In this document: piece after piece, positions 11,757 through 35,915 of the stretch
Numbering within the stretch: position 1 is the stretch's first letter
Layout: each line of letters starts with the position of its first letter
Source: an uncultured Porphyromonadaceae bacterium
Lineage (GTDB): Bacteria; Bacteroidota; Bacteroidia; Bacteroidales; Muribaculaceae
Length of the DNA: 41,631 nucleotides
Direction of reading: 5' to 3'
Assembly (NCBI GenBank): GCA_947175495.1
Contig: CAMWNB010000019.1
Coordinates: 1-41,631 of the forward strand
Position numbers and translations under genes: made by a program
The notes under the pieces: generated by a model
Told to the model about the DNA's origin: nothing
The model's input: the letters and a program-made list of their open reading frames with translations, nothing else
The model's database searches: none

Positions 11757-11790
11757 GCACGGAGGTCAAGGCGCGGGATGCGAACAAGCG

Positions 11791-11840
11791 CAAAAGCGAA
11801 ACAGGAAGCGCAAGCTTTGTTTCGCTTTTGTCCTTTTATT
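11791..11840 (+). terminator. hairpin with T-rich tail downstream of the lipoprotein pair
   Basis: A perfect 13-bp stem, CAAAAGCGAAACA (11791-11803) with TGTTTCGCTTTTG (11818-11830), has a 14-nt loop and is followed by TCCTTTTATT. It may end the lipoprotein transcript. It also reuses the GCGAAACA half-site of the GTTTC repeats, so it may be a diverged member of that family. Confidence 0.55.
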
Positions 11841-11871
11841 GTAATGTGGAGGGTTATTGTAATGTGGAGGG
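11836..11871 (+). repeat. 18-bp tandem duplication upstream of the VWA operon
   Basis: TTATTGTAATGTGGAGGG occurs twice with no gap (11836-11853 and 11854-11871). The second copy ends 16 bp before the putative -33 element of the operon promoter, a position suited to an activator or repressor site. Confidence 0.85.
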
Positions 11872-11887
11872 GATTTCGGAGCAAATG

Positions 11888-11918
11888 TTGGCGGTGTTAA
11901 AAAAAGTGATTATATTTG
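11888..11918 (+). promoter_or_regulatory. promoter of the VWA-tubulin-peptidase operon
   Basis: TTG (11888-11890), a 20-bp spacer and TATATTTG (11911-11918) match the Bacteroidetes promoter. The ATG of the first gene follows after 4 nt, so the mRNA may be leaderless. The box-to-start sequence is the same as at ung except for one base. Confidence 0.7.
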
Positions 11919-11922
11919 CAAC

Positions 11923-13704
11923 ATGAAGAAGGCACACGCGTTTATATTGCTCATTTTGCTGATTATGGCCGTGGCTGCGCCCGTGGCGCAGGGGCAGCGG
12001 CAGCGCAATTACATCTATCTTTTCGACTGCACGCAGTCGATGCAGACGCTGGGCATATGGGAGCCGGCGAAGTCGGCGCTGCAGCGCACCGTCGACGTGC
12101 AGCTGCCGCAGGCCGAGGCACAGTTTGCCGTCGTGCCTTTCCAGGATGTGGCCTACCCGGCCTTCGCTTTCGACGCGTCGACCTACGCCGGGCAGCGCGA
12201 GCCTATGCTCAAGGCCCTGGACGGCTACATTGCCCGACGCACCAACACCAACATCGCCGACGCGCTCCGGGCCGGCTTCGACCTCTGCCGCCCCGAGACG
12301 GACAACCGCGTGTATCTGCTCACCGACGGCGACGACAATGTGAAGAAGACACCGGCCGTGGTGGAGCTTATCCGCAAATGGTGTGCCTCGCACACCAACA
12401 CGCGCCTTTTCTATGTGACGCTCGACGCCGCCGCCGACAATCCCGAGATACGCGCCGCCATCGATGCCTGCGACGACGCTTTCATGGTCAACTGCCACGG
12501 AGGCGTGATTCCGCAGATTGCCGACATCACGCCCTCGGAGATATATGCCAACACGCTCGAGCCGGATGCCACCCACCGCATAGCCTTCAGCGAGCCGGGG
12601 CGCTACGCGCTGCAGGCGCGCTGCGCCGACCCCTTTTTCGACGCGGAGATAGAGGGCGGCTGCGCCGACGGGCAGCAGCTGCGCGTGCGGCTGCGCATGC
12701 GCCGCGAGATGAGCGTCGACTCGCTCAACGCGGCTCTCGACGCCGCCACCGACGCCGACGGCAACTATACCTTCGCGTTCGACATCGTGCCGGCCGACGC
12801 CAAGGGCCTCACCATAGCCAACCCGACGGTGGATGTGGTGATGAGCAACTGGCGCCCACGCTCGCTGGCCATCGCGCCCGACATCACCGACGAGACCGTG
12901 GTGAAGCCCGGCTCGTTCAGCTACCCCGCTTTCCTGTTCTCGGCCGCACACCCGGCCGACGCCATAGAGATAGACCTCGCGCCCGCCTTCAACGAGGCTG
13001 CCGTCGAGGCCGGAAGCGCGGCGGCCTTCACTCTCGAGGCGGCCAACGGCCAGAGCGCCGACTACACGCTGCTCTACAACGGCACGCCCGTGGCCGGCGG
13101 CGAGTCCGTCACCATGGAGCCCGGCAAGCCTGCCGTGCTGTCGATAGTGTTCGGAGATGAGTCCGCCACGGGCAAGCGCTACTTCACGCTGCGCTGCACC
13201 GACATCCACCTGCTCGAGCGGCTGAACGGCACGCCGGCGTCGCTGAGCGCCGCGTGGGCGCTGCGCACGCACTACGAGCGCCGGTGGAATCCGCTGGCCA
13301 AGGGCCTCGCATGGGCCGGCGCGGCGCTGCTGGCAGCGCTCGCGCTGTGGTTCGTCCTGCTGCGGCGCATGTTCTTCCCGACGTTCGCTGTCTCGGCTCT
13401 CGAGTTCGCCGGCCCCGGCAGCTACTATGCGCGCAAGCGCGTGAAGTCGTTCCGCAAGGTGTGTCTCAGCTCGAAGCGGCAGACCCAGAGCGCTCTCAGC
13501 CGCATCTTCACCGGCAAGATTCTCTTCGTGCGCGCCGAGGTGTGGCAGCCGGAGCTGACCATCGTGCCCGGCAACAAGAAGACGGCCCGCGCCGTGGCGC
13601 AGAAAGGCTGGGACATCGTGCCCTCGCGCACGCTCAAGCGCCACGAGACCTACGACGTGGTGAACAGCGCGACGGGCGCCACTTCGAAACTCACCGTGGA
13701 ATAA
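11923..13704 (+). CDS. membrane-anchored von Willebrand factor A protein
   Basis: The 593-aa protein begins with a signal peptide (to about residue 24), then a VWA domain with metal-site residues DCTQS (35-39), TNTNIADAL and LLTDGDD. A large beta-rich region follows to about 450, then one membrane helix (about 458-480, LAWAGAALLAALALWFVLL). The last 110 residues, basic near the membrane, would be cytoplasmic. So the VWA domain faces the periplasm and could bind a ligand or wall component, while the tail could contact the cytosolic partners. The next gene begins 44 nt downstream. VWA partners of a bacterial tubulin-like family were noted in a comparative-genomic study by Makarova and Koonin (2010). 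I infer, but cannot show, that this is the same kind of system. Confidence 0.9.
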   Translation: MKKAHAFILLILLIMAVAAPVAQGQRQRNYIYLFDCTQSMQTLGIWEPAKSALQRTVDVQLPQAEAQFAVVPFQDVAYPAFAFDASTYAGQREPMLKALDGYIARRTNTNIADALRAGFDLCRPETDNRVYLLTDGDDNVKKTPAVVELIRKWCASHTNTRLFYVTLDAAADNPEIRAAIDACDDAFMVNCHGGVIPQIADITPSEIYANTLEPDATHRIAFSEPGRYALQARCADPFFDAEIEGGCADGQQLRVRLRMRREMSVDSLNAALDAATDADGNYTFAFDIVPADAKGLTIANPTVDVVMSNWRPRSLAIAPDITDETVVKPGSFSYPAFLFSAAHPADAIEIDLAPAFNEAAVEAGSAAAFTLEAANGQSADYTLLYNGTPVAGGESVTMEPGKPAVLSIVFGDESATGKRYFTLRCTDIHLLERLNGTPASLSAAWALRTHYERRWNPLAKGLAWAGAALLAALALWFVLLRRMFFPTFAVSALEFAGPGSYYARKRVKSFRKVCLSSKRQTQSALSRIFTGKILFVRAEVWQPELTIVPGNKKTARAVAQKGWDIVPSRTLKRHETYDVVNSATGATSKLTVE

Positions 13705-13748
13705 CCTTACTCAGAAATAATATAAACCTATCATAACACACCACTACC

Positions 13749-16523
13749 ATGGCAACCAAAATCCGCCGCTCCCTCTTCATCGGCCTGGGAGGCACGGGCA
13801 TGAACGCCCTGCTGCACACCAAGAAAATGTTTTACGACACCTATGGCGAGATTCCGCCTATGATAGGTTTTCTCGGCATCGACACCGACGGCGGAGTCTA
13901 CAACAAGACTGTCCCGGCGGCCGACGGCACGGCAGTGTCGCTGAGCACATCGGAGCAGCTGCCCATCTGCGTGACGGGGCCGTCGCAGATCTACCTGCGC
14001 AACCCCGACAACTACGACTGGCTGCCCGAATGCAACGCCTCGGGCCTGTCGGCGCTCAACATCGGCGCCGGCCAGATGCGCTCCAACGGCCGCTTCGCCG
14101 TGACGCTCCACCGCGACGACCTGGCAGGGCGCATCAGCAACAAGCTGCTGCAGATCAACAACGCCGCCCACATCGACAACGAGCGCTACCGCCTGCTGAG
14201 CAACGACCTGGAGATACATGTGGTGTTCTCGCTGGGCGGCGGCACGGGCTGCGGCACCTTCCTCAACGTGGCCTACCTGCTGCAGGAGCTCGTGCCCGAC
14301 GCAAAGGTGTCGGGCTATGCCGTGATGGCCGACGTGTTCCGCGCCATGATGCAGGGCGCGGGCGTGGTGCGCGTGCGCCCCAACGCCTACGGCGCCATCA
14401 AGGACCTCGACTTCCTGGCCCACCTCGACCCCGCCTCGGCTCCCGTCGAGATAAAGTGGCTGCGCGACGTGCAGACCGTGCGCGAGCGCCCCTTCACCGC
14501 TCTCTACCTCATCGACAACCGCAATTCCAACGGCGACATGTTCACCGATGTCGACCAGCTGTGCGAGATGATCTCGCTGGCGTTCATCACCTCCACGGGC
14601 GAGCTGAGCGTGGCCACGGCCTCCGTCAGCGACAACGTGGCCAAGGTCATCGGCGACGGCTCCATGGACATCAAGAACAAGAAGGCATGGGCCGCAGGCT
14701 TCGGCGTAAGTGAAATCGTGTTCAACGGCCGCGCCCTGGCCGACATCTACGCCAACAAGGCACGCGCGCAGCTCGTGAACCACCTGATGAACGGCGGCTG
14801 CGACGACCCCTCCGTGATGGCCAACAACTGGATCGACACCACCCGCATCCGCGAGAACCTCGGCAAGGACGACGTGACGGACTATTTCATGAAGCCCACG
14901 CCGCAGTTCGACTTCATCGACATCGACAACCCCGAGAACCCGCTGCCCGAGTGCAACGCCTACCTCAACACGCGCGCCGTCGACTCCACCGAGAGCCTCA
15001 ACGAGAAACTCGACGCCCTGCGCACCCGCGTGCGCTCCTCGCTCCGCGAATTTCTGCGCACGACGCTCAACCGCGAGTGCGGCGTGTTCCTGGCTCAGAA
15101 CATCCTCGGCGCCATCCGCACGCAGATGGACCTCTGCAGCGGCGAGATGAAGGCCGAGGCCAAGAATCTCTCCGACGAGCTGCCGCGCCGCATCGCCGCC
15201 ATGGAGACGGCCTGCCGCGAGCTTGCCGACTGCATGGGCACATGGTTCAAGCGCGGCAAGGCGCAGCTGACGGAGGAAGTGTGCGACACGGTGCGCCGCG
15301 TGGCCGTGATGCGCCGCGAGATAAAGCGCCGCGAGATGGCCCGCGAGTTCTACAACACGATGGACGCCATGCTCTCGGAGTTCTACCAGCGCATCGACGT
15401 GATAGCCTCCAACCTGGCCGCCGCACGCGATGCGAGCAACCGCGCCGTCGAGAGCCTGCGCCAGCAGATAGGCGCCACGTCGTTCTTCCAGTTCGACCTG
15501 GCCGTGGGCGAGGCCGAGAAGGTGAAGTGCGAGCCGTCGGACGTGTCGCTGCACGACTTCGTCGAGACCGTCATGAAGGACCGCGGAGGCATCGCCGCCT
15601 TCGCCGACATGACCGGCGACGAGACCGCCGCCGCCCTGGCCGAGTATGCCGACAGGCTGCCGGCCGCCGCAGGCTACGCCGCCCGCAGCGTGGAGGACGT
15701 GCTGAAGGCGCTGCCGCAGGCCGAGCTGAAGAGCCTGCTCGAGCGCGCCATCAAGAAGTCGCTCCCGCTGTTCACCTACAACTACCACGGCTACGACGCC
15801 GACGTGCGCCAGCAGCCCATGGACGCCTTCTACGTGGGCGTGGCCGACGACAAGACCACCTGCCTGCGCCGCGACGACGTGTTCCAGGAACTCGTGCCCA
15901 ACGGCGCCAAGGTCGACTTCTCCGGCATCGGACTGACCGACCGCATCATCATCTACCGCCAGATCGGCGTGCTGCCCGCGTTCACCATCACCGCGCTCGA
16001 CACGTACGAGCCCGAGTACGAGCGCTTCGAGGCCGACAAGCCCCACACGTCGCACTGGGACGCAGCCATGTGCCGCCGCATGGCCAAGGAGCGCTTCTCG
16101 CTCATCCCCGCCGACGTCACCGGCGAGCGCGAGGTGCTGTCGGCATGGGTGGCGGCGCTCATCTACGGCCTCGTCAGCTACGCCGACGGCAAGTACCGCA
16201 TAAAGAGCCGCGGCCTGGGAGGCAAGCCCCTGGGCGGCTACAAGGTGGACATGGGCGCCACGCGCAAGGAGGCCTACGACTTCCTGCACGACAACATCGA
16301 CGTGATAAAGCCCGAGCTCGACGCCCACATGGCCGCGCTCGACGTGCCCGGCCCCGACAACTTCCTGCGCAGGCAGACGGCCCTGGCCAAGGCGCAGGCC
16401 GAGGACGGCACCTATCTGGGCGGCCTCTCGCTGTGTCCCATCCCCGCGGCCGACATCGACTACTATCCCGCCGAGGCCGAGCTGCTCAACAACGAGCTTG
16501 AATACATAATGACCAAGCTGTAG
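13749..16523 (+). CDS. tubulin/FtsZ-superfamily GTPase (Tubulin_2-like)
   Basis: This 924-aa cytosolic protein has the nucleotide-binding layout of the FtsZ/tubulin fold: FIGLGGTGMNA (10-20) at the first loop, FLGIDTDGG, a GAGQMRSNGR loop, and the signature SLGGGTGCGTF with the glycine-rich T4 loop at 163-169. NAYGAIKDLDFL and LIDNRNSNGDMFTDVDQL (about 254-271) follow, the latter in the place of the T7 region and helix H8. The second half (about 420-750) is helical, partly coiled coil, and the end is a separate globular part. Most FtsZ proteins are far shorter, so this is a large tubulin-like protein such as PF13809. It probably forms filaments or membrane-associated assemblies. Its neighbours are a periplasmic VWA protein and a membrane-bound peptidase. 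Confidence 0.88.
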   Translation: MATKIRRSLFIGLGGTGMNALLHTKKMFYDTYGEIPPMIGFLGIDTDGGVYNKTVPAADGTAVSLSTSEQLPICVTGPSQIYLRNPDNYDWLPECNASGLSALNIGAGQMRSNGRFAVTLHRDDLAGRISNKLLQINNAAHIDNERYRLLSNDLEIHVVFSLGGGTGCGTFLNVAYLLQELVPDAKVSGYAVMADVFRAMMQGAGVVRVRPNAYGAIKDLDFLAHLDPASAPVEIKWLRDVQTVRERPFTALYLIDNRNSNGDMFTDVDQLCEMISLAFITSTGELSVATASVSDNVAKVIGDGSMDIKNKKAWAAGFGVSEIVFNGRALADIYANKARAQLVNHLMNGGCDDPSVMANNWIDTTRIRENLGKDDVTDYFMKPTPQFDFIDIDNPENPLPECNAYLNTRAVDSTESLNEKLDALRTRVRSSLREFLRTTLNRECGVFLAQNILGAIRTQMDLCSGEMKAEAKNLSDELPRRIAAMETACRELADCMGTWFKRGKAQLTEEVCDTVRRVAVMRREIKRREMAREFYNTMDAMLSEFYQRIDVIASNLAAARDASNRAVESLRQQIGATSFFQFDLAVGEAEKVKCEPSDVSLHDFVETVMKDRGGIAAFADMTGDETAAALAEYADRLPAAAGYAARSVEDVLKALPQAELKSLLERAIKKSLPLFTYNYHGYDADVRQQPMDAFYVGVADDKTTCLRRDDVFQELVPNGAKVDFSGIGLTDRIIIYRQIGVLPAFTITALDTYEPEYERFEADKPHTSHWDAAMCRRMAKERFSLIPADVTGEREVLSAWVAALIYGLVSYADGKYRIKSRGLGGKPLGGYKVDMGATRKEAYDFLHDNIDVIKPELDAHMAALDVPGPDNFLRRQTALAKAQAEDGTYLGGLSLCPIPAADIDYYPAEAELLNNELEYIMTKL

Positions 16524-16531
16524 GCCCGCTC

Positions 16532-19500
16532 ATGACTCCCGTTCTCGCCCTCTGGCCCGACGACGCGGCGGCCGCACTGCGCGCCGACGTGGACGCCCGC
16601 ATGGCCGACAGCGGCTTTGCCGCCGACGCCTACCGCAGCATAGCCTGCAGGCTGTCGCCCGACACGGCGGCCGCCACGCGGGTGATGCTGTCGGAGCAGT
16701 ACGCCGAACTCATCAACCTCGACGCCACCGACACCACGATGCACATAGCGCTGGTGCTGCCCCTGTGGCTTCCCGACGCCGCCGGGCGCGCCGAGGCGCT
16801 GATGCAGGCCGCCGGCGAGATCACGCACGACGTCACCATCGACATCCTGGGGCTGCAGAGCGCCCTCGACATCGGCGCCCCCGCGGCCGACGAGCCCTCC
16901 AAGCGCCAGGCGGAGCGCCGCACCATCGACACGCTGGCCGCGCGCTGCGCCGCGTCGACATTCCCCTGCCGCATCTTCGCCCTCGACAACTACAACGCCA
17001 CGGGCGCGGCGGCAGGCTTCACGGACAGACTGCTGGCAAAGTTCATAAGTGCGCTGCTGCGCATCATGGCAGAGAGCTTCGGCGACACCTTCGCGCGCCT
17101 CAACCCCGCGGCCGCCACGCAGCCGTCGGTGGGCGCGGCGGGCATAGCCGTGCTCGAGTTCCGCCGCGACCGCATGGCCGACTATCTGCTGAGCCGCGCT
17201 TTCGTGTCGGCCCTCGACGAGGCCGGCGTGATGCAGGAGCAGGTCGACGCCCAGGGCGCCGCCGAGCGCGCCCGCGTGTGCCTCAACGGCATCGGGCGCT
17301 TCTACGACGAGTTCTACGACACGCAGGTGGAGCCGCTGATAGCCTCCGGGCTGCCCGAAGGCGAGATAGCCGCCCGCATCCGCAAGCCCCTGGACGAGGC
17401 CGTGGCCGCACTGCACGCACGCCTTTCGGCCTTTATGGACGACAAGGGCCTCAGCCTGCCCGAGAAAGAAGCCACATGGGCCGTTATCCTCGGCCGCGAC
17501 AACAAGCTGCTCGACGGCACGCTCTACAAGCAGCGCGGCTGCACGTTCGACGACGTGTTCGCCACTCCGGCGCAGCTGTTCATCGACGCGTTCAACGACT
17601 ACGCCTCCGGCACGGGGCTGCTGCCCGAGCGACGTCAGTACCCCGCCCTTGCCTTTCCCGAGGCCGAGGGCGAGGAGGACCCGCGCAACCGCCAGGCGTT
17701 CGACCCCCTCGACGACATCAAGACGCTGAAGTCGGAGCTGCTCGACATCACCGCCTACATGCGCTCCAAAGAACGCGAGATAGAAACCCTGCGCGACAAT
17801 TCGGAGAAAGGCGACATGGCCGAAGGACACCTCTCGGAAGAGGGCTTCGTGTTCAAAGGCGTGGCGCGCCGCCTCGAGGCCGCCATCGTGGAGGAACCCC
17901 TGCAGGAGACCTACACTCCCGCGCCGGGGCTGAAGCCGCTGCCGTCGGTCGACCTGCGGCCGTTCTTCTCGCCCGTGCGCGACCAGGGCCCCGTGGGGTC
18001 GTGCACGGCATTCGCCGTCATAGGCATGTACGAGTACATCGTCAACCGCAACAGCCCGGGCCTTGACGCCGGAGCCAATCTGAGCGAGCGCTTCATCTTC
18101 TACCACACCAACATCAGCCGCGGCCGCGGCAACGAAGGCAGCAGCTTCTCCGACCAGCTCAACGCCCTTGGGCGCGCGGGCACATGCAGGGAAGAGTTCT
18201 ATCCCTATGTGCCCGAGCTGCTGAACGAGCCGCCGACCGAAGCCGCCACAAAGGACGCGCTCACGCACCGCGTGACGCTCGCGCGCCAGGTGCCGCTGCG
18301 CTCCGACGGAAGCAAATACGACTGCGTGAAGGCCAACCACCTGATGCTGACATCGGCGCTGACCGAGGGCTACCCCGTGGGCATCTCGCTCATGCTCTTC
18401 GACGATTTCGGCAGCTGCCCCGGAGGCCATGTGCCGCGCCCGAGCGACGACGCCGTGGCCCACGCCGAGCACGGCCACCACGCCATGGTGCTCGTGGGCT
18501 ATTCCGAGCGCGACAACTGCTACATCGTGCGCAACTCGTGGGGCGAGGGCTTCGGCGACAAGGGCTACGCCTACATCTCGGCCGCCTATGTCGACGACCC
18601 CGAGCTGTGTCGCTTCGCCTGCATCATCGCCGACACCACCGACGGCCCCGCCACGGGCGGCACGGCCACCGCCACGCCCGCCCTCGTGGCACCGTTCGCC
18701 GGCACCGAAACGCAGATAAAGATAGCCTCGGCCAGCAACGCCCTGGACATGGCGCGCATCCACTTCAAGTGGATAGCTACGCGCTACGAGGAACTGTACC
18801 GCTACTACGCCGACCTGATGCAGCGCCTCGGCCAGCCGTTCGTGCGCAACGAGCTGCGCTCCATCTCCGAGCAGGCGTCGGCCGAGCGCCTTGCCCGGCT
18901 CGCCGCGCACAAAAGCGCGCTTCTCGCCACCTTCGCCGACAAGATGCGCGCCTTCCGCCGCAGCTACATCAAAGGCGCCCTCATCACCACCGGCACCGCG
19001 CTGCTGCTCACAGCCGCCGCGGGCGCCCTGTCGTACTTCGGCGCGCCGGCCCGGACGCAGACCTACTGGTGGGTGGCGGCAGCCGTCGCCATAGTGGCGG
19101 CCGCGGTGGTATGGGCCCACTACAAATGGGCCACGCGCCGCAAGCGCCTCGAACTGCAGACCGAGGTCGACGACACCGCCGCAGCCATAGGACGCGAGGA
19201 ACGCACGCTGCTGACAATGCAGCTGCGCTTCCATGTGGGCGGCATGGTCATCGACGCGATGCACCGCCTGTCGCTCGGGCTTGAGGCCGACTACCAGCGC
19301 CTGATGAGCTACAACAACAATCTGCGATGCTGGCACGAGGAGGACGAAAGGCGCGCCGCAGCCCTGGAGACGGGCAGCGAGGCCATGTTTGTGAACCTCA
19401 CCGACCCGCAGCTGCTCGACGCCTTCTTCGAGGCGCACCGCGCCGAGGTGACATCGCGTGTGCGCCTGCTCGAAGCCTTCGGCGCCTACACGCTCTCCAC

Positions 19501-19876
19501 CGACGGCATGGCCGACGTGCGCCGCGCGCTCGAGAACGACACCCGCGCAGCCATCGTGCCGCTGTTCGCCGACTTCTCCATGGCAGCCTACATCATGGGC
19601 ACGCGCCGCTACCCCTACCTGCCCGATCCGGCTCTCGACGCCACGCTCAAGCGCCTCAACCGCATGGCCCGCGTGCTCACACGCCACCGCTCGGCCGACT
19701 CGGCCTTCGAGTCGAAACACCTGATAGCCGGCGTGGCCGCCGCCGAGCGCCACCGCTGGCTGCAGCTGTGCACGCCCCACTTCGAGTACCAGCCCATGAC
19801 GCTGCCTACGCCCGACACCGACCGCCTCACCCTGCTCACCCTCAACCTTATCCCCGCCGCCGACCTCATCCTCTGA
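16532..19876 (+). CDS. papain-like (C1) peptidase protein with membrane hairpin and possible degenerate tubulin-like N terminus
   Basis: This 1114-aa protein begins 8 nt after the tubulin-like gene. Residues about 60-230 can be aligned by eye with the tubulin-like neighbour (MHIALVLPLWLPDAAG against IHVVFSLGGGTGCG; ALDNYNATGAAAGFTDRL against LIDNRNSNGDMFTDVDQL), but the glycine loop is lost, so it may be a pseudo-GTPase. A coiled coil lies near 395-425. A C1 papain-fold peptidase spans about 460-700: Gln485 and Cys491 in QGPVGSCTAF, His650 in HHAMVLVGY and Asn668 in VRNSWGEGF, so the active site is intact. Helical segments flank two membrane helices (about 814-835 and 843-862). The C-terminal 250 residues are helical and unassigned. 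There is no signal peptide, so the peptidase should be cytosolic. Confidence 0.85.
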   Translation: MTPVLALWPDDAAAALRADVDARMADSGFAADAYRSIACRLSPDTAAATRVMLSEQYAELINLDATDTTMHIALVLPLWLPDAAGRAEALMQAAGEITHDVTIDILGLQSALDIGAPAADEPSKRQAERRTIDTLAARCAASTFPCRIFALDNYNATGAAAGFTDRLLAKFISALLRIMAESFGDTFARLNPAAATQPSVGAAGIAVLEFRRDRMADYLLSRAFVSALDEAGVMQEQVDAQGAAERARVCLNGIGRFYDEFYDTQVEPLIASGLPEGEIAARIRKPLDEAVAALHARLSAFMDDKGLSLPEKEATWAVILGRDNKLLDGTLYKQRGCTFDDVFATPAQLFIDAFNDYASGTGLLPERRQYPALAFPEAEGEEDPRNRQAFDPLDDIKTLKSELLDITAYMRSKEREIETLRDNSEKGDMAEGHLSEEGFVFKGVARRLEAAIVEEPLQETYTPAPGLKPLPSVDLRPFFSPVRDQGPVGSCTAFAVIGMYEYIVNRNSPGLDAGANLSERFIFYHTNISRGRGNEGSSFSDQLNALGRAGTCREEFYPYVPELLNEPPTEAATKDALTHRVTLARQVPLRSDGSKYDCVKANHLMLTSALTEGYPVGISLMLFDDFGSCPGGHVPRPSDDAVAHAEHGHHAMVLVGYSERDNCYIVRNSWGEGFGDKGYAYISAAYVDDPELCRFACIIADTTDGPATGGTATATPALVAPFAGTETQIKIASASNALDMARIHFKWIATRYEELYRYYADLMQRLGQPFVRNELRSISEQASAERLARLAAHKSALLATFADKMRAFRRSYIKGALITTGTALLLTAAAGALSYFGAPARTQTYWWVAAAVAIVAAAVVWAHYKWATRRKRLELQTEVDDTAAAIGREERTLLTMQLRFHVGGMVIDAMHRLSLGLEADYQRLMSYNNNLRCWHEEDERRAAALETGSEAMFVNLTDPQLLDAFFEAHRAEVTSRVRLLEAFGAYTLSTDGMADVRRALENDTRAAIVPLFADFSMAAYIMGTRRYPYLPDPALDATLKRLNRMARVLTRHRSADSAFESKHLIAGVAAAERHRWLQLCTPHFEYQPMTLPTPDTDRLTLLTLNLIPAADLIL

Positions 19877-20187: not shown

Positions 20188-20262
20188 ATGGAGAAATTCT
20201 TCCTAAAAGTTCTTCACGAAGAACCCCTCGACAAACTCACCCTTGAGTCCATCAAGGGCGGC
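20188..20262 (+). other. segment encoding a double-glycine-type leader
   Basis: The first 25 codons read MEKFFLKVLHEEPLDK, then LTLESIKGG. An amphipathic stretch ending in Leu-x-x-Glu-x-Ile-x-Gly-Gly is typical of leaders cut by C39 peptidases, and a C39 transporter is encoded two genes' width downstream. The segment is in frame with the outer-membrane barrel, whose own signal peptide starts at residue 35 (ATG 20290). Confidence 0.6.
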
Positions 20263-22608
20263 TTGAATATTCTCGGGAAGAACTACACAATGAAACATCA
20301 TAAATTTCTTATTACACTAATTGCTTTTTTGTGGAGCTGCCTGTCGTCTTTTGCCTACGACATGACGGTTATTTTCCGTGTGGATGAAACTGGCGACAAG
20401 ATTGTCGAATTTACGCCGGCGATTGTATTTGCGGCAGACTTTTCTACAGCTTCCAATGCTATGTACAATGATGCAGACAGCACATATTTTTTTGAGAATA
20501 TCCCGGAGAATCAAAAACTCGCATTGATTTATATAATCGACGGAAATATTCACGGCCAATCCATAAAAGAGCCGCTTGACACCATGTGCATCTACATTCC
20601 GGCCTTTTATCTCAGGCAGCCCACTATGCTTAATGAGGTTACCGTCACGGCCTCCGACCGCAGCATGTCGGCCGATAAAGACACATATATTCCCACATCG
20701 CAGACAAAGAAAATTTCGGCCAACGGAACCGACCTCATCCGCAACATCGGCATCACCACGCTGCAGGTCTCGGCCTTGGACGGTACGATAAGCACACTCA
20801 GCGGCGAGCCTGTTTCCACCTTTATTGACTTCCGCCCGGCATCGCGCGCCGATGTGCGCAACATCCGCGCTGAAGATGTCAAACGCGTGGATGTCTACGA
20901 TTCGCCGGACGACCCACGCTTCGGAGGAGCGCGCCATGTGGTAAACTATGTGATGGCAGAATATGAATTCGGCGGATACACCAAATTCGATGCCGGCCAG
21001 TACACTGCCTTAAACAGCGGCATGTACTCTGCCTATTCCAAGTTTGCCTACAAAAAGATGATCTACGACGTCGGCGTTGATTTCGAGTACATGCACCACC
21101 GCCATCACGGCTACGACTGCCTGACTGCATACACGTTCCCCGAGCGGACTATAGAGCAGACGCGCCGGGCAGACAAATCCCTCACATCCACCCGAAGCAT
21201 CGCTGCGTTTGTCCGTCCCATCTATCAGACACAAAAACTGTCGATTTCCAACACCTTCAGTTTTAAGAACAATACTGCTCCCGACAACTATACCACCGAA
21301 CAAGAACTATTCAACTCGCCCGACTATATCTCCGGCACACAAACCACCTCCACCGACAATTCCGGCCACTCATTCGCCTGGCAGGGCAACTACCAGCTTT
21401 TCCTTTCAAAGACTCTGACACTGGTAGTCGACCCCTCCGCATCATACGGCAAAAACAAACAATATTACGACTACGCCTCCGGCACGTCGGCCGTAAGAAA
21501 TATTGTTGACGAGAAAGCGTGGAAAGGAGCAGTTAACGTATCGTTGCAAAAAATATTCGGACAGCAGTCCTTGACCGCAAAGGTTTTCGGCGAGTTGTCC
21601 GGAAACGACATCGACTACTCGGGCAACACCGTTTCCCGGCAAGAAGGCCGCAAAGCAGCAGAAGGCCTGCGGCTACAGGCCAATCTCACTTTCGGCAAGC
21701 TCACCCTGTTCCCGAATCTCACACTTTATGCCAACCATCAGAAAATAAATGGTGTGAGCAATACCGACGTCAATCTGAAATATTTCATATACGCATCGTA
21801 TTTTTTCAGCGAAAAGAACAAGTTGCAGTTATCAAGCGATTATTTCCAACAGAGTGTACCACAGAGCTCCATGACCGACATCATTCAGCTGCAGAACCAG
21901 ATATATGCCATAGCCGGCAATTCCGACTTGAAGACTGCCCGATGGCTCAGCGTCACGGCCCAGCACACCTACATGCCTGTTAAAAATCTATCGCTGACCC
22001 CTTACGCCGTGTGGCAGTTCAACGACCGCACCATCTGTCGCGACTACATACCCATGGAAATAGATGGCCGGGACGTGATGCTTGGCAAGGTGGTCAACAG
22101 CGGACACTCCAATAAATATGTCTATGGCCTGTCTGCCAACTGCAACCTTTTCAACAACTCGCTGCACCTGAATGCCAACGTCAGCGGCACCACCCGCAGC
22201 GTGCACGGTCCTTTCACAGCATCGTGCACCCATGTGGACTGCAATCTTGAAGCGAGATACAATTTCTCCAATTTCTATGTATCTGCATATTATCAGAACA
22301 AGGGTAAATCCATCTCAGCCTTCGGAATCGAGCGCACCCCCGATTTTTATTTCTTTACCGCCGGATGGGGCAACGGAAACTGGCAGCTGAGCGCTACGGC
22401 CTACCGCCTGTTCAGCACCTCTTATCGCGGAGGCTTTGAAGAGATAACGACCCGCTATTACAAAAACTTCCAACACGAGTACACCCCGTTCTACCATTGC
22501 CGCTTCTCCTTCTCCGCCACTTACTCCTTCTCCTACGGCAAGAAGAAAGTGAGCCACAACATCGACACCGCCCTCCCCTCCGGCCCCGAGTCGCAGATTC
22601 TCAAATAA
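20188..22608 (+). CDS. TonB-receptor-like outer-membrane beta-barrel with leader-like N-terminal extension
   Basis: From ATG 20290 the product has a signal peptide (FLITLIAFLWSCLSSFA), a short beta-rich N-terminal domain, a plug-like domain that opens with LNEVTVTASDRS, and a barrel of alternating aromatic strands ending YSFSYGKKKVSHN. This is the type of outer-membrane protein that Bacteroidetes place beside peptide exporters. The frame extends upstream without a stop to ATG 20188 and adds 34 residues ending in a double-glycine motif. Either start is possible. If the long form is made, a leader-like sequence precedes a second, Sec-type signal. Base composition is lower in GC than the core genes, which suggests transfer. 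The PCAT gene follows after 12 nt. Confidence 0.75.
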   Translation: MEKFFLKVLHEEPLDKLTLESIKGGLNILGKNYTMKHHKFLITLIAFLWSCLSSFAYDMTVIFRVDETGDKIVEFTPAIVFAADFSTASNAMYNDADSTYFFENIPENQKLALIYIIDGNIHGQSIKEPLDTMCIYIPAFYLRQPTMLNEVTVTASDRSMSADKDTYIPTSQTKKISANGTDLIRNIGITTLQVSALDGTISTLSGEPVSTFIDFRPASRADVRNIRAEDVKRVDVYDSPDDPRFGGARHVVNYVMAEYEFGGYTKFDAGQYTALNSGMYSAYSKFAYKKMIYDVGVDFEYMHHRHHGYDCLTAYTFPERTIEQTRRADKSLTSTRSIAAFVRPIYQTQKLSISNTFSFKNNTAPDNYTTEQELFNSPDYISGTQTTSTDNSGHSFAWQGNYQLFLSKTLTLVVDPSASYGKNKQYYDYASGTSAVRNIVDEKAWKGAVNVSLQKIFGQQSLTAKVFGELSGNDIDYSGNTVSRQEGRKAAEGLRLQANLTFGKLTLFPNLTLYANHQKINGVSNTDVNLKYFIYASYFFSEKNKLQLSSDYFQQSVPQSSMTDIIQLQNQIYAIAGNSDLKTARWLSVTAQHTYMPVKNLSLTPYAVWQFNDRTICRDYIPMEIDGRDVMLGKVVNSGHSNKYVYGLSANCNLFNNSLHLNANVSGTTRSVHGPFTASCTHVDCNLEARYNFSNFYVSAYYQNKGKSISAFGIERTPDFYFFTAGWGNGNWQLSATAYRLFSTSYRGGFEEITTRYYKNFQHEYTPFYHCRFSFSATYSFSYGKKKVSHNIDTALPSGPESQILK

Positions 22609-22620
22609 CCCCTCCCCGAC

Positions 22621-24804
22621 ATGAGAGGATTCTTCGTGCGCCAGAAAGACGTGATGCAGTGCGGCATCGCATGCCTCTCGATGGTGTGCCGATGGCATGG
22701 CGCCGACATCGGCATCGACGAGATAGAAAAGCTGTGCCCGTCGAGCCGCGAGGGAGTTTCCCTGCTGGCGCTGTCGGAGACGGCTGCGGCTCTCGGCCTC
22801 GAAAACGAATCGGGCAAGCTCACCGTCGCGCAGCTCGCGTCCATCCCCATGCCGTGCATCCTCCATTGGAATCAAAACCACTTTGTGGTGCTCTACCGCG
22901 TGGGGCGCGGCGGCCGACGCTTCTATGTGGCCGACCCCGGCAAAGGGCGTCTGAGCTACACCGCCGATGAGATGGCCTCGCACTGGGCCACGGCTCCAGG
23001 CGGCCGCGGCATCGCCATGGTGCTTGAGCCCGGCGAGGCATTCCGCGCGCGGCGCGAGAACACGCGGCGGCAGAAGCGCACCCTGCGCTTCATCATGGGC
23101 TATGTGGCCCGCTACCGGCGACACTTCGCCCAGATTATGCTCGGACTGCTCGTGGGCTCGCTGCTGCAGCTTGTGCTGCCGTTTCTCACACAGGCCATTG
23201 TTGACGCCGGCATCCGTCGCCAGGACCTTGGCATCATATGGCTCATCCTCCTGGGCGAACTGATGATAGTGCTTGGCCGCGCCGCCTCCGACTTTATCCG
23301 GCGCCGTCTGTTGCTCCACATCTCCATGCGCGTCAACATCTCGCTGGTCAGCGATTTCTTTATTAAGTTACTCAAGCTGCCCATGTCGTACTTCGACCGC
23401 AAACTCACAGGCGACCTCATGCAGCGTATCGCTGACCATACCCGCGTGCAGACCTTCCTAACCTCGCAACTGCTCGGTGTCTCTTTCTCGCTTCTCAACT
23501 TTGTGGTGCTCGGCATAGTGCTGGCAGTCTACGATGTTCTTATTTTCGGCGTGTTTATGGCCGGCAGCATCGTCTACGGCGCATGGATAGCCATGTTTCT
23601 GCGCCGCCGCAAGGTGCTCGACTACGAACTGTTCTCTCGTCAGTCTACCAATCAGAACAAGACATTCCAGTTTCTCACCTCCATGCAGGAAATCAAGCTG
23701 CAGGACTGCGAGCGCCGGCGCCGCTGGGAGTGGGAGGACACCCAGGCCGACCTCTTCGATGTGCAGATGGAAATCCTCAAGCTCACCCAAAGCCAGGAGG
23801 CAGGAGGCGTCTTTATCAACGAGGTAAAGAACATACTCATCACCGTGCTCGCCGCTGCCGCCGTCATCAACGGGCAGCTAACGCTCGGCGCCATGCTCGC
23901 CGTGCAGTATATCATCGGACAGCTCAACTCGCCCGTCGAGCAGCTGATGTCGTTCATCTACTCGCTCCAGGATGTGAAAATATCGCTCGAGCGCATCAAC
24001 GAGGTGCACCTCGGCCGCGAGGAGGAGGACGGCACCGACAGCCGCCTCACCGCACTGTGCGGCCCCAAGGCCATCACCGTCGACGGGCTCGACTTCAAGT
24101 ACGACCCCCATGCTCTGCGCTACACCCTCCGCGACGTCAGCTTCGCCATCCCAGAGGGGAAAATCACCGCCATCGTCGGAGCCTCGGGTAGCGGTAAGTC
24201 CACCCTCATCAAGCTCATGCTGGGCTATTATACACCGCTGGGAGGCGAAATCCGCATCGGCACGGAAAGTCTTGGACGCTACAGCCTGCGCTGGTGGCGG
24301 CGCCAGTGTGGCGTCGTCATGCAGGACGGCGTCATATTCTCCGAGTCCATCGCCCGCAACATCGCTGTCGACGACGGCGACATCAATACAGAACGCGTGC
24401 ACCGAGCCGCGCGCATCGCCTGCATCCACGACTATGTGATGAACCTCCCCATGCAGTACGAGACTCGCATCGGAGCCGAAGGCAACGGTATCAGCCAGGG
24501 ACAGCGCCAGCGCATACTTATAGCCCGCGCCGTCTACCGCAACCCCGACTTCATCTTCCTCGACGAGGCCACCAACTCACTTGACGCTGGCAACGAACGA
24601 CGCATTGTCGAAAATCTCGCACGCTTCTACCGCGGACGCACCGTCGTCATAGTAGCCCACCGTTTGTCCACCGTCCGCAATGCCGACAATATTGTGGTAC
24701 TTGATGGCGGACGCGTCGTCGAGAGTGGCGACCACCGCAGACTAATAGAGCGTCGCGGGGAGTATTATCGGCTTGTTAAAAACCAACTTGAACTCGGCAA
24801 CTGA
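22621..24804 (+). CDS. C39 peptidase-containing ABC transporter (PCAT)
   Basis: The 727-aa protein fuses three modules. An N-terminal C39 peptidase carries Gln8, Cys14 (MQCGIACLSM), His87 (NHFVVLY) and Asp105 (VADPGKG), all intact. A six-helix transporter domain spans about 160-450. A nucleotide-binding domain has Walker A GASGSGKSTL (near 520), signature ISQGQRQR, Walker B FIFLDEATNSLD and the H-loop IVAHRL. Such proteins cut the leader of double-glycine peptides and export the core across the inner membrane. The signature is ISQGQ rather than LSGGQ, a variant I associate with this family. The gene lies between the beta-barrel and a small HlyD-anchor-like protein. Confidence 0.93.
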   Translation: MRGFFVRQKDVMQCGIACLSMVCRWHGADIGIDEIEKLCPSSREGVSLLALSETAAALGLENESGKLTVAQLASIPMPCILHWNQNHFVVLYRVGRGGRRFYVADPGKGRLSYTADEMASHWATAPGGRGIAMVLEPGEAFRARRENTRRQKRTLRFIMGYVARYRRHFAQIMLGLLVGSLLQLVLPFLTQAIVDAGIRRQDLGIIWLILLGELMIVLGRAASDFIRRRLLLHISMRVNISLVSDFFIKLLKLPMSYFDRKLTGDLMQRIADHTRVQTFLTSQLLGVSFSLLNFVVLGIVLAVYDVLIFGVFMAGSIVYGAWIAMFLRRRKVLDYELFSRQSTNQNKTFQFLTSMQEIKLQDCERRRRWEWEDTQADLFDVQMEILKLTQSQEAGGVFINEVKNILITVLAAAAVINGQLTLGAMLAVQYIIGQLNSPVEQLMSFIYSLQDVKISLERINEVHLGREEEDGTDSRLTALCGPKAITVDGLDFKYDPHALRYTLRDVSFAIPEGKITAIVGASGSGKSTLIKLMLGYYTPLGGEIRIGTESLGRYSLRWWRRQCGVVMQDGVIFSESIARNIAVDDGDINTERVHRAARIACIHDYVMNLPMQYETRIGAEGNGISQGQRQRILIARAVYRNPDFIFLDEATNSLDAGNERRIVENLARFYRGRTVVIVAHRLSTVRNADNIVVLDGGRVVESGDHRRLIERRGEYYRLVKNQLELGN

Positions 24805-33950: not shown

Positions 33951-35915
33951 ATGAGAACACACCCGACAATCATCGCGGCCGCTATCATGTGTGCATCCTT
34001 CACAGTGCATGCCGTGGAGGCCCCGAAGCTGCAAGGCGAAATCATCGGCACCGAGCCCAATGCCGGCTACCGGCTCGAATCGGCTTTCGACGGCAACCTG
34101 TCCACCAGTTTCTACGCGCAGCGCTCCGGCTCATACTCGCGTCCCTGGGCCGGCCTCGACCTCGGCATCAGCCATGTGATTTCTCGCATCGGCTTCGCGC
34201 CCGACGCTTCCAGCCGCAGCTGCTCGCGCCTGGCAGTGTTCCAGGGAGCCACGAAGGCCGACTTCTCCGACGCGCTCCCCATAGCCATCGTGCCGGTGGA
34301 AGGCCCCGTGCCCGGACAGATGTTCTACATCGACGTGAACGTGTCGCGCGGATTCCGCTATGTGCGCATGGTCGGCGCCGGAGGCGCCCAGCTCAACCTT
34401 GCCGAACTTGAGTTCTACGGCACGCCGGGCGAAGGCGACGACTCGCAGTTCTTCCAGGTGACCAACCTGCCCACCGTGGCATTCAACACCCCCGGCATGG
34501 AAGAAATCAAAAGCAAGGACGACAAGCACCCCGGCAGCACAGTGCATGTGATATACGACGACGGCAAGTCTATCCTCACCGACACACAGGCCCAGATGAA
34601 AGGCCGCGGCAACGCATCGTGGGGCATGGACAAGAAACCCTTCCAGATAAAGTTCAACAAGAAGCAGCGCATCCTGCCCGACGCCCCGGCCAAGGCCAAG
34701 AAATGGACGCTCATCAACAACCACGGCGACAAGACACTGATGCGCAACCGCGTGGCCTTCGACATGAGCCGCGTCATAGGCATGGCTTACACGCCCTACT
34801 GCACCTTCGTCGACGTGATCTACAACGGCGAGTACGAAGGATGCTACCAGCTGTGCGACCAGATCGAGGTGAACGACAACCGCGTGAACATCACCGAGAT
34901 GGAACCCGGCGACACTGACGGCGACGCCCTCTCCGGCGGCTACCTTATAGAAGTGGACGCGTATGCCTACCAGGAGGAATCGTATTTCGTCACATCCTAC
35001 GGCGTGCCCGTCACCATCAAATCGCCCGACGACGATGAAATCACCCCCGAGCAGAAGCAGTATATCTCGGACTACTTCAACGCCTTCCACCTGGCCGCCT
35101 ATGCCGACAACTTCACCGACCCCGAAGCCGGCTACCGCCGCTATCTCGACCTCGACAGCTTTCTGCGCTATTTCATCTGCGGCGAGCTCAACGGCAACAC
35201 CGACACCTACTACAGCACCTACATCTACAAGCACCGCGGCGACGACCTGCTCTACACCGGACCCATCTGGGACATCGACCTGGGATTCAACAACGACAGC
35301 CGCACCTACGACATCAACTCGCACAGCGGATTCGTCTATGCCAGAGGCTCGTCGGCCGGCAACATGAGGCAACTCGTGCACCGCATCGTCGAGACCGATC
35401 CCGGCGCGCGCCTGCGCCTCAGCGAGATATGGTCGAAGCTGCGCAAGCTTCCCGAATTCAACGCCGACTATTTCAACGCCCGAATCGACGAATACGCCGG
35501 GCTCATCGACCGGTCGCAGACCTACAACTTCGTGCGCTGGCCCATCCTCTCGCAGTGGGTGCACATGAACCCCACGGTGCGCCACACGTTCAAGGCCGAA
35601 GTCGACGCCATAAAGAGCTACATCACCCGGCGTTTCGACGGCCTTGACAAGCTCATCGGCATCGTCGACGTGCCCGACGACCCCGGCCAGGGCGGCATCG
35701 CCGATGCCGCGGCCGAGCCTGCAAGCATCTCCCTCGACGGCGACATGCTCACCGCCGTGGGCCGTGCCGGCCATCCCCTCGACATCTACAGCATCGACGG
35801 ACGCCGACTGCGCCACTTCGCGCTCACCGGCGGCATCGACACCTTCGACATCAGCGACCTCAGCGGCATCCTCATTGTCCGCACCCCCGGCGCAGCACGC
35901 AAGATTCTGAAATAA
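33951..35915 (+). CDS. secreted CotH-family protein with discoidin-like domain and T9SS-like tail
   Basis: The 654-aa protein has a signal peptide (1-21), a discoidin-like galactose-binding domain (about 30-160, with SAFDGNLSTSFYA) and a CotH kinase-like domain (about 185-520). The latter shows MKGRGNASWGMDKKPFQIKF, WTLINNHGDKTLMRN, YEGCYQLCDQIEV and the acidic WDIDLGF. The last 80 residues look like a type IX secretion sorting domain: LDIYSIDGRRLRHFAL, FDISDLSGILIV and ARKILK. CotH of spore formers phosphorylates coat proteins; secreted bacterial members are poorly known. It is a single-gene unit with its own promoter and a following hairpin, and is probably displayed on the surface. Confidence 0.88.
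   Translation: MRTHPTIIAAAIMCASFTVHAVEAPKLQGEIIGTEPNAGYRLESAFDGNLSTSFYAQRSGSYSRPWAGLDLGISHVISRIGFAPDASSRSCSRLAVFQGATKADFSDALPIAIVPVEGPVPGQMFYIDVNVSRGFRYVRMVGAGGAQLNLAELEFYGTPGEGDDSQFFQVTNLPTVAFNTPGMEEIKSKDDKHPGSTVHVIYDDGKSILTDTQAQMKGRGNASWGMDKKPFQIKFNKKQRILPDAPAKAKKWTLINNHGDKTLMRNRVAFDMSRVIGMAYTPYCTFVDVIYNGEYEGCYQLCDQIEVNDNRVNITEMEPGDTDGDALSGGYLIEVDAYAYQEESYFVTSYGVPVTIKSPDDDEITPEQKQYISDYFNAFHLAAYADNFTDPEAGYRRYLDLDSFLRYFICGELNGNTDTYYSTYIYKHRGDDLLYTGPIWDIDLGFNNDSRTYDINSHSGFVYARGSSAGNMRQLVHRIVETDPGARLRLSEIWSKLRKLPEFNADYFNARIDEYAGLIDRSQTYNFVRWPILSQWVHMNPTVRHTFKAEVDAIKSYITRRFDGLDKLIGIVDVPDDPGQGGIADAAAEPASISLDGDMLTAVGRAGHPLDIYSIDGRRLRHFALTGGIDTFDISDLSGILIVRTPGAARKILK

Follow-up and report, generated by a model that had tools for sequence, protein, structure and literature searches.

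The FtsZl1 family of tubulin-like GTPases, its link to vWA genes and a proposed role in membrane remodelling were defined by Makarova and Koonin in 2010 (PMC2875224). Remodelling is proposed there to proceed with VWA, membrane and OmpA-like proteins, and the named partners are a GTPase, a kinase and OmpA; by term search, the words peptidase, protease and papain have 0 occurrences in the main text of that paper, outside which stand its additional files, where an unlabelled partner family could be the C1 gene described below. Tubulin and vWA genes have also been placed in the predicted GAP1-N2 conflict systems (Kaur et al. 2020, PMC7159879), and Tubulin_2 proteins are described as sparse and divergent (PMC9871819). 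We describe here a three-gene cassette from an uncultured Porphyromonadaceae bacterium (contig CAMWNB010000019.1, 41,631 nucleotides; this whole stretch is hereafter the window), in which a Tubulin_2/FtsZl1 GTPase (TUB) is encoded between a VWA protein and a papain-domain protein (C1).

The locus resembles the FtsZl1 operons in its Tubulin_2-type domain with a GGGTG loop, its long C-terminal region and its adjacent vWA gene, and Bacteroides caccae appears in the alignment legend of the 2010 study; it differs in having a peptidase partner, none being named in that main text (PMC2875224). An earlier reading made from the letters of this DNA (the sequence-only reading) had rightly drawn the link to this family. 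The GAP1-N2 DO-GTPase systems likewise combine a tubulin-domain gene with a gene for a membrane vWA protein, in neighbourhoods that are mobile and predicted to act against invaders; there, however, the tubulin theme belongs to firmicutes and actinobacteria, and the sections considered report no papain partner of tubulin (PMC7159879). A Pfam scan of 18 window genes (the three cassette genes and 15 others) gave no match to DO-GTPase or GAP1, the Pfam coverage of both being unchecked. Literature searches found no description of a VWA-tubulin-papain unit in titles or abstracts, most subscription journals lying outside their reach, and no experiments on the FtsZl1/Tubulin_2 family among the matches listed, in agreement with the earlier statement that no described system has this peptidase partner.

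We propose, with a probability of roughly 0.38, that the cassette encodes a protease switch anchored in the membrane, in which VWA governs a GTP-dependent co-assembly of TUB and the C1 scaffold that gates the protease, and that this switch most likely serves in conflict with invaders. In this self-contained system, an outward-facing VWA sensor would control the FtsZl1/Tubulin_2 GTPase and its papain-bearing partner, the two acting jointly at the inner membrane: the VWA ectodomain would bind a ligand in a metal-dependent manner, its cytosolic tail would recruit or release TUB, GTP-loaded TUB would co-assemble on the membrane with a pseudo-tubulin scaffold in C1, and assembly would turn on the cytosol-facing papain domain, leading to cleavage of host or invader proteins. 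The most likely role would be that of an inducible conflict switch, directed against invaders or towards cell suicide. Through the cassette, a family described in 2010 acquires an actual enzyme as partner, whose active site can be tested, and possibly a partner in assembly. Should assembly gate the protease, the tubulin superfamily would be joined to regulated proteolysis, a link for which we know of no described system, and the membrane-remodelling proposal would become directly testable against a defence role.

The three genes lie head to tail on the + strand in the order VWA-TUB-C1 (window 11923-19876), as the sequence-only reading had them: VWA at 11923..13704 (593 aa), TUB at 13749..16523 (924 aa) and C1 at 16532..19876 (1114 aa), each defined by open reading frame (ORF) and Pfam, with gaps of 44 nt (VWA-TUB) and 8 nt (TUB-C1). 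The stretch is GC-rich, and antisense ORFs of 596, 865 and 1105 aa overlap the three genes. We take the + strand as coding because its proteins are conserved in related loci, TUB and C1 in 24 other cassettes and VWA as a single ORF in 21, down to about 19-21% identity. Co-occurrence in related genomes, on which the earlier reading depended, was found as well: TUB lies directly upstream of full-length C1 in 25/25 cassettes (L031 and G1100 being counted once), and VWA-related ORFs lie upstream in 24/25, locus L235 starting at a contig end; VWA is divided into two ORFs in L037 (by an in-frame stop) and L048. Taking first start codons, TUB and C1 overlap or are separated by at most 8 nt in 17/25 cassettes, and VWA-TUB gaps range from -8 to 50 nt in 22.

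TUB matches PF13809 (Tubulin_2) over residues 9-343 (13773..14777, + strand) with an E-value of 3.6e-45 and 155.2 bits, for a cut-off of 27. Its nucleotide loop GGGTGCG (aa 163-169, 14235..14255, + strand), already recognised as a tubulin signature, is constrained among the cassettes: G164, G165, T166, G167 and G169 are kept in 25/25 cassettes, the first position is G in 11, A in 9, C in 3 and S in 2, and the S/T place holds S in 15, C in 6 (including the window protein) and A in 4. Mean identity is 50% and 35% in the two halves of the protein.

In C1, a Peptidase_C1 domain (PF00112, E 1.5e-15) spans residues 474-685 (17951..18586, + strand) and is the most conserved part of the protein, with a mean identity of 44% against 24% and 23% in the flanking scaffolds and 28% overall. 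The catalytic triad had been called intact, and with correct numbering: Cys491 (18002..18004, + strand) is present in 24/25 cassettes, and His650 (18479..18481, + strand) and Asn668 (18533..18535, + strand) in 25/25, as is Gln485. The exception at the Cys place is the C1 of L034 (L034:11995-15252), which has Ser there and a Cys one residue earlier, and which may be inactive or shifted. The nearest solved chain is 3ois (E 2.4e-15); C1 resembles such papain peptidases in its catalytic Gln, Cys, His and Asn, and differs in that the domain sits in the middle of a large membrane-linked protein. Pfam named no pro-region. Quick trees suggest that C1 evolves faster than TUB, with a median end branch of 0.48 versus 0.17.

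Topology was assigned in all three proteins by Kyte-Doolittle hydropathy scan, which is not specific, since it also flags a stretch inside TUB in 7/25 cassettes. It shows no N-terminal signal-like stretch in C1. The two-helix membrane hairpin claimed for C1 (about aa 812-866, 18965..19129, + strand) is well supported in the relatives and weaker in the window protein itself: at least two hydrophobic stretches fall within about aa 796-902 in 18/25 cassettes, one in 6 and none in 1 (L237), and the window C1 has a single stretch over threshold, at aa 844-862. For VWA, counts refer to the 22 cassettes with one complete ORF, L037, L048 and L235 standing outside them. A hydrophobic stretch near the C-end, besides the one at the N-terminus, is present in 22/22, in accord with the single membrane helix first described. 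The window protein comprises an N-terminal signal-like stretch, the VWA domain, a middle region, a hydrophobic stretch at about aa 458-486 and a basic tail of ~107 aa, which would lie on the cytosolic side.

The VWA domain falls just under the PF00092 cut-off (22.7 bits for 23.8, E 1.3e-4). Its metal-binding MIDAS residues (D35-x-T37-x-S39, T109 and D135) are nevertheless intact in 22/22, and a profile of the domain matched three solved chains (best E 1.8e-9), which we take to be VWA proteins. A profile of the tail gave no credible match to solved structures by sequence search (best E 1.2). Protein distances of VWA, TUB and C1 correlate among cassettes (Pearson 0.92-0.96, Spearman 0.72-0.87, with kinship ignored).

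The cassette is patchily distributed. Of 397 genomes in the window's family, 29 match C1, partial copies included: 25 hold it at full length, and four stand outside this set: G1073, where the gene is divided between two contigs, G146, truncated by a contig end, G096, with a 585-aa protein, and G1005, with just a C-terminal piece. The N-terminal piece in G1073 has TUB and VWA upstream; the piece in G1005 has neither within the 12 kb fetched. In a sample of 149 family genomes the C1 profile matches 12, of which 10 are full-length, each beside TUB, and two are partial (G146, G096). Across the order (393 genomes), full-length C1 was found only in the window's own genome among the matches listed, the rest covering the papain region or parts. 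PF13809 occurs in 13/395 genomes of the phylum, and the C1 profile found nothing in 10 Tubulin_2 neighbourhoods outside the family (8 of 12 other phylum genomes, plus G160 and G228). In IMG/VR there was no TUB relative, and the best 80 of 481 C1 loci match the papain region only. One unannotated phage record reaches 26% over 32% of TUB.

Flanking genes differ between genomes. For 13 of 21 genus genomes we read 8 to 20 kb of the sequence preceding pyrG, with contig ends shortening several of these stretches: the window's neighbours are absent there, no simple empty site was seen in these 13, and G931 and G940, both among them, have the cassette on a different contig. On the TUB tree, the window's genus (seven rows) needs 6 changes versus a shuffled-label mean of 6.3; all genera together need 13 versus a shuffled mean of 16.8, with 0/200 shuffles as low, so that there is some clustering by genus. 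This picture agrees with an accessory unit that undergoes exchange. The 112 ORFs lying no more than 3.5 kb from the 25 cassettes match 81 PADLOC families; the control, 112 of the 161 ORFs beside pyrG (10/13 loci), matches 140, mostly helicase or ATPase models among the matches listed. Among those listed for the cassette flanks, one or two members hit Cas3 models (best E 7.4e-194), and PDC-S14, PDC-S72 and PDC-S07 were each matched once; the Cas3 match, placed by motif, appears to lie in L236.

Related Tubulin_2 units come in several architectures. In the same 149-genome sample, PF13809 picks out 28 genomes at an E-value of at most 0.001, with 24 above cut-off; by hand, from their neighbourhoods, we sorted the 28 into four types and one other. 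Type A is the VWA-TUB-C1 cassette, in the same ten genomes that hold full-length C1. Type B (10 genomes) combines a longer TUB with further partners, among them a small hydrophobic protein; it includes G066 and G089, seen only as contig-end fragments, and G059, placed by gene sizes alone. In several of L032, L033, L040, L041 and L043-L046 the TUB gene is preceded by one for a related small hydrophobic protein and followed by one for a related protein of 200-236 aa. Type C (L049 and L050, 2 genomes) runs VWA-TUB-952 aa-transglutaminase-like, and L114 holds a similar transglutaminase-like unit by homology; these units share with the cassette a thiol-peptidase-type domain near VWA and TUB, but here it is of the transglutaminase-like kind and has a gene of its own. 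Type D (5 genomes) pairs a TUB that is short and weakly matching with a partner of 1300 aa; G042, the one other, is related to this type. Loci L051-L055 show it as a second conserved unit of the family, in which the Tubulin_2 protein, of ~555 aa and again a weak match, is joined by the 1300-aa partner and by a protein of 540 aa; in L054, the type D locus scanned, Pfam recognises neither of these two at E 0.01.

Six plasmid records hold a TUB relative, of which five were viewed. Three are Thermales megaplasmids (NC_019387, NZ_CP021131, NC_014213) that present vWA, TUB and a third gene in the same order as the cassette, with TUB 32-33% identical over the first third; their third gene is different, a hypothetical protein of 677-686 aa with no protease named, and precedes BrxL in 3/3, directly or after an insertion sequence (IS) element. 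Helicase, exonuclease, DUF1156 or WYL genes lie nearby; DUF1156 marks methylases of BREX-related systems in a paper whose main text mentions tubulin 0 times (PMC12839542). On plasmid p2 of Azospirillum sp. TSA2s (L251:7950-14914) the Tubulin_2 gene has OmpA-family genes as neighbours, together with two caspase-family genes encoded on the opposite strand. Thiol-peptidase domains around the Tubulin_2 family take three forms: papain, transglutaminase-like and caspase.

This recurrence of thiol peptidases beside Tubulin_2 argues for the protease switch. Its assignment to conflict draws on the patchy distribution, the varied flanks and the faster evolution of C1, on the BrxL gene that follows vWA-TUB-X in all three Thermales plasmids, and on the earlier prediction of tubulin-vWA sets as conflict systems (PMC7159879). 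A more specific version is rather unlikely as a whole: a bacterial immune switch pairing a tubulin-family GTPase with a dead tubulin copy that bears a mid-protein papain-like protease, GTP-driven membrane assembly starting proteolysis under an external VWA sensor. We would give the same low credence to regarding such a switch as the tubulin-based counterpart of inflammasome-caspase control.

The cassette may instead serve membrane or envelope remodelling, which is the reading of Makarova and Koonin with a protease added: TUB polymers would form on the inner membrane, VWA would anchor them to the periplasm, and the papain domain would trim or recycle the assembly. Such a role has been proposed for FtsZl1 with its VWA, membrane and OmpA-like partners (PMC2875224), and the membrane-type stretches in both VWA and C1 would suit it. 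However, most genomes of the window's family lack the unit, which is therefore dispensable, no fixed envelope neighbour was seen in the flanks, and the Thermales relatives precede BrxL, so that we consider this a possibility on the unlikely side. The conserved signal-like and C-end hydrophobic stretches of VWA, together with the intact catalytic residues, could also be accounted for by a surface-signal or quality-control protease, with VWA as the sensor of a ligand or stress in the envelope and TUB and C1 processing specific proteins of the inner membrane or cytosol, outside any conflict; we hold this to be unlikely, the patchy distribution and the many separate sequence lineages within one genus being better suited to an accessory role.

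The co-assembly step of the protease switch draws on the two C1 regions that flank the papain domain. The N-terminal scaffold (aa 1-465, 16532..17926, + strand) aligns by profile comparison at aa about 143-229 with TUB aa about 247-344, and the C-terminal scaffold (aa 700-1114, 18629..19873, + strand) has weak similarity to the C-terminal helical region of TUB. With the first profiles, C1 aa about 131-223 matched TUB about 234-338 (E 0.0042, score 28.6) and C1 868-1103 matched TUB about 502-737 (E 0.0012, score 33.1); the best of 120 decoys, made by shuffling or reversing profile columns in blocks, scored 26.2 and 26.0, respectively. When the profiles were broadened by 16 divergent TUBs and the G096 relative and a slower alignment program was used, the N-terminal match with the broad TUB profile reached 42.1 (E 1.2e-4), the top score in 80 decoys being 19.5; the C-terminal one gave 37.4 (E 8e-4, over 42 columns only; best of 80 decoys 20.3). 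For the 952-aa partner of type C, the alignments fall on the same stretches of TUB (E 0.01) and of C1 (E 0.014), and eight unrelated sets score at most 20.4 against the TUB N-terminal profile. Cross-pairings and VWA controls gave E-values of 0.028-0.42.

This weak local similarity suggests that C1 may be a loop-less pseudo-tubulin, that is, a relative of TUB that has lost the GTP loop and gained an inserted papain domain and hairpin, a view that is supported but weak. Beside it we note the 585-aa C1 relative of G096 (L106:5143-6900), which has parts of both scaffolds without the papain region or hairpin; this genome is absent from the PF13809 matches in the 149-genome sample. On our reading, which is not proof, the G096 protein may be a natural relative of the C1 scaffold without the insert. 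The sequence-only reading is in the end partly supported: its gene content, residues, order and family link stand, its coupling of filament assembly to proteolysis stays an inference, and the pseudo-tubulin, the conflict systems of Kaur et al. and the BrxL relatives were absent from it.

A number of results weigh against the protease switch or parts of it. As to the scaffold, PF13809 matches none of 18 C1 N-terminal regions, global profile alignment with TUB scores 7.5 for decoys of up to 15.9, the short type D TUBs give E 0.61 with the C1 N-terminus, narrow profiles gave the type C partner a marginal match or none, C1 compared with the type C proteins also spoke against the similarity, and for the third gene of the Thermales plasmids the same region yields scores of 19.4 and 21.2 (E 0.14 and 0.10), barely above unrelated families; nor did the C1 N-terminal profile find a credible match among solved structures by sequence search (best E 0.009). 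As to TUB, PF00091 is reached only at E 0.052, the profile matched no tubulin or FtsZ chain in PDB by sequence (best E 0.17 for the N-terminal profile), and, with regard to filament formation, T6-H7 elements are not identifiable in the FtsZl1 family according to Makarova and Koonin (PMC2875224). Structure models built on alignments of TUB and of C1 with a single relative, L031, reached pLDDT 32.3 and 33.4, so that the predicted tubulin and papain folds rest on Pfam profiles; the TUB model is too low in confidence to show the coiled coil and helical C-terminal domain expected of FtsZl1 proteins. As to conflict, PADLOC 2.0.0 has 0 model matches for VWA, TUB or C1 at E up to 1, enrichment of defence genes in cassette flanks over the pyrG control was not shown among the 25 families listed for each, the Azospirillum plasmid has no vWA annotated beside TUB and no BrxL, a Cylindrospermopsis plasmid has no vWA or peptidase annotated beside TUB and no BrxL, and our searches found a tested function for no member of the family. 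That the proteins are merely made together, C1 having no GTPase-gated activity and its likeness to TUB reflecting chance or generic helical and alpha/beta similarity, would agree with the weak E-values, the PF13809, global and type D results and the 42-column C-terminal match, but is quite improbable given the rise of the N-terminal score on broadening the profiles, the same regions being hit in C1 and the type C partner, and the low scores of the unrelated sets.

Upstream of the cassette, a candidate -7 box (TATATTTG, 11911..11918, + strand) lies 12 nt before the VWA start and was recognised by its match to TAnnTTTG, the Bacteroidetes -7 consensus. In 16/22 cassettes such a box is found no more than 150 nt from the VWA start; the reverse strand has it in 2/22, and 500 letter shuffles average 1.84 and never exceed 6. 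Further upstream, a perfect 18-nt tandem direct repeat (11836..11871, + strand) is a possible regulatory site, and an inverted repeat with 18-nt arms, 89% complementary, occupies 11786-11835, just 5' of the operon.

No BREX core gene was found among the 18 window genes scanned. Directly downstream of the cassette lies a gene for an 806-aa protein with no Pfam match (20188-22608); its opening 25 codons resemble a double-glycine leader and precede a second, signal-peptide-like start. It is followed by a Peptidase_C39 ABC exporter (22621-24804), and a CotH kinase domain protein (PF08757, E 1.8e-47) is encoded at 33951-35915.

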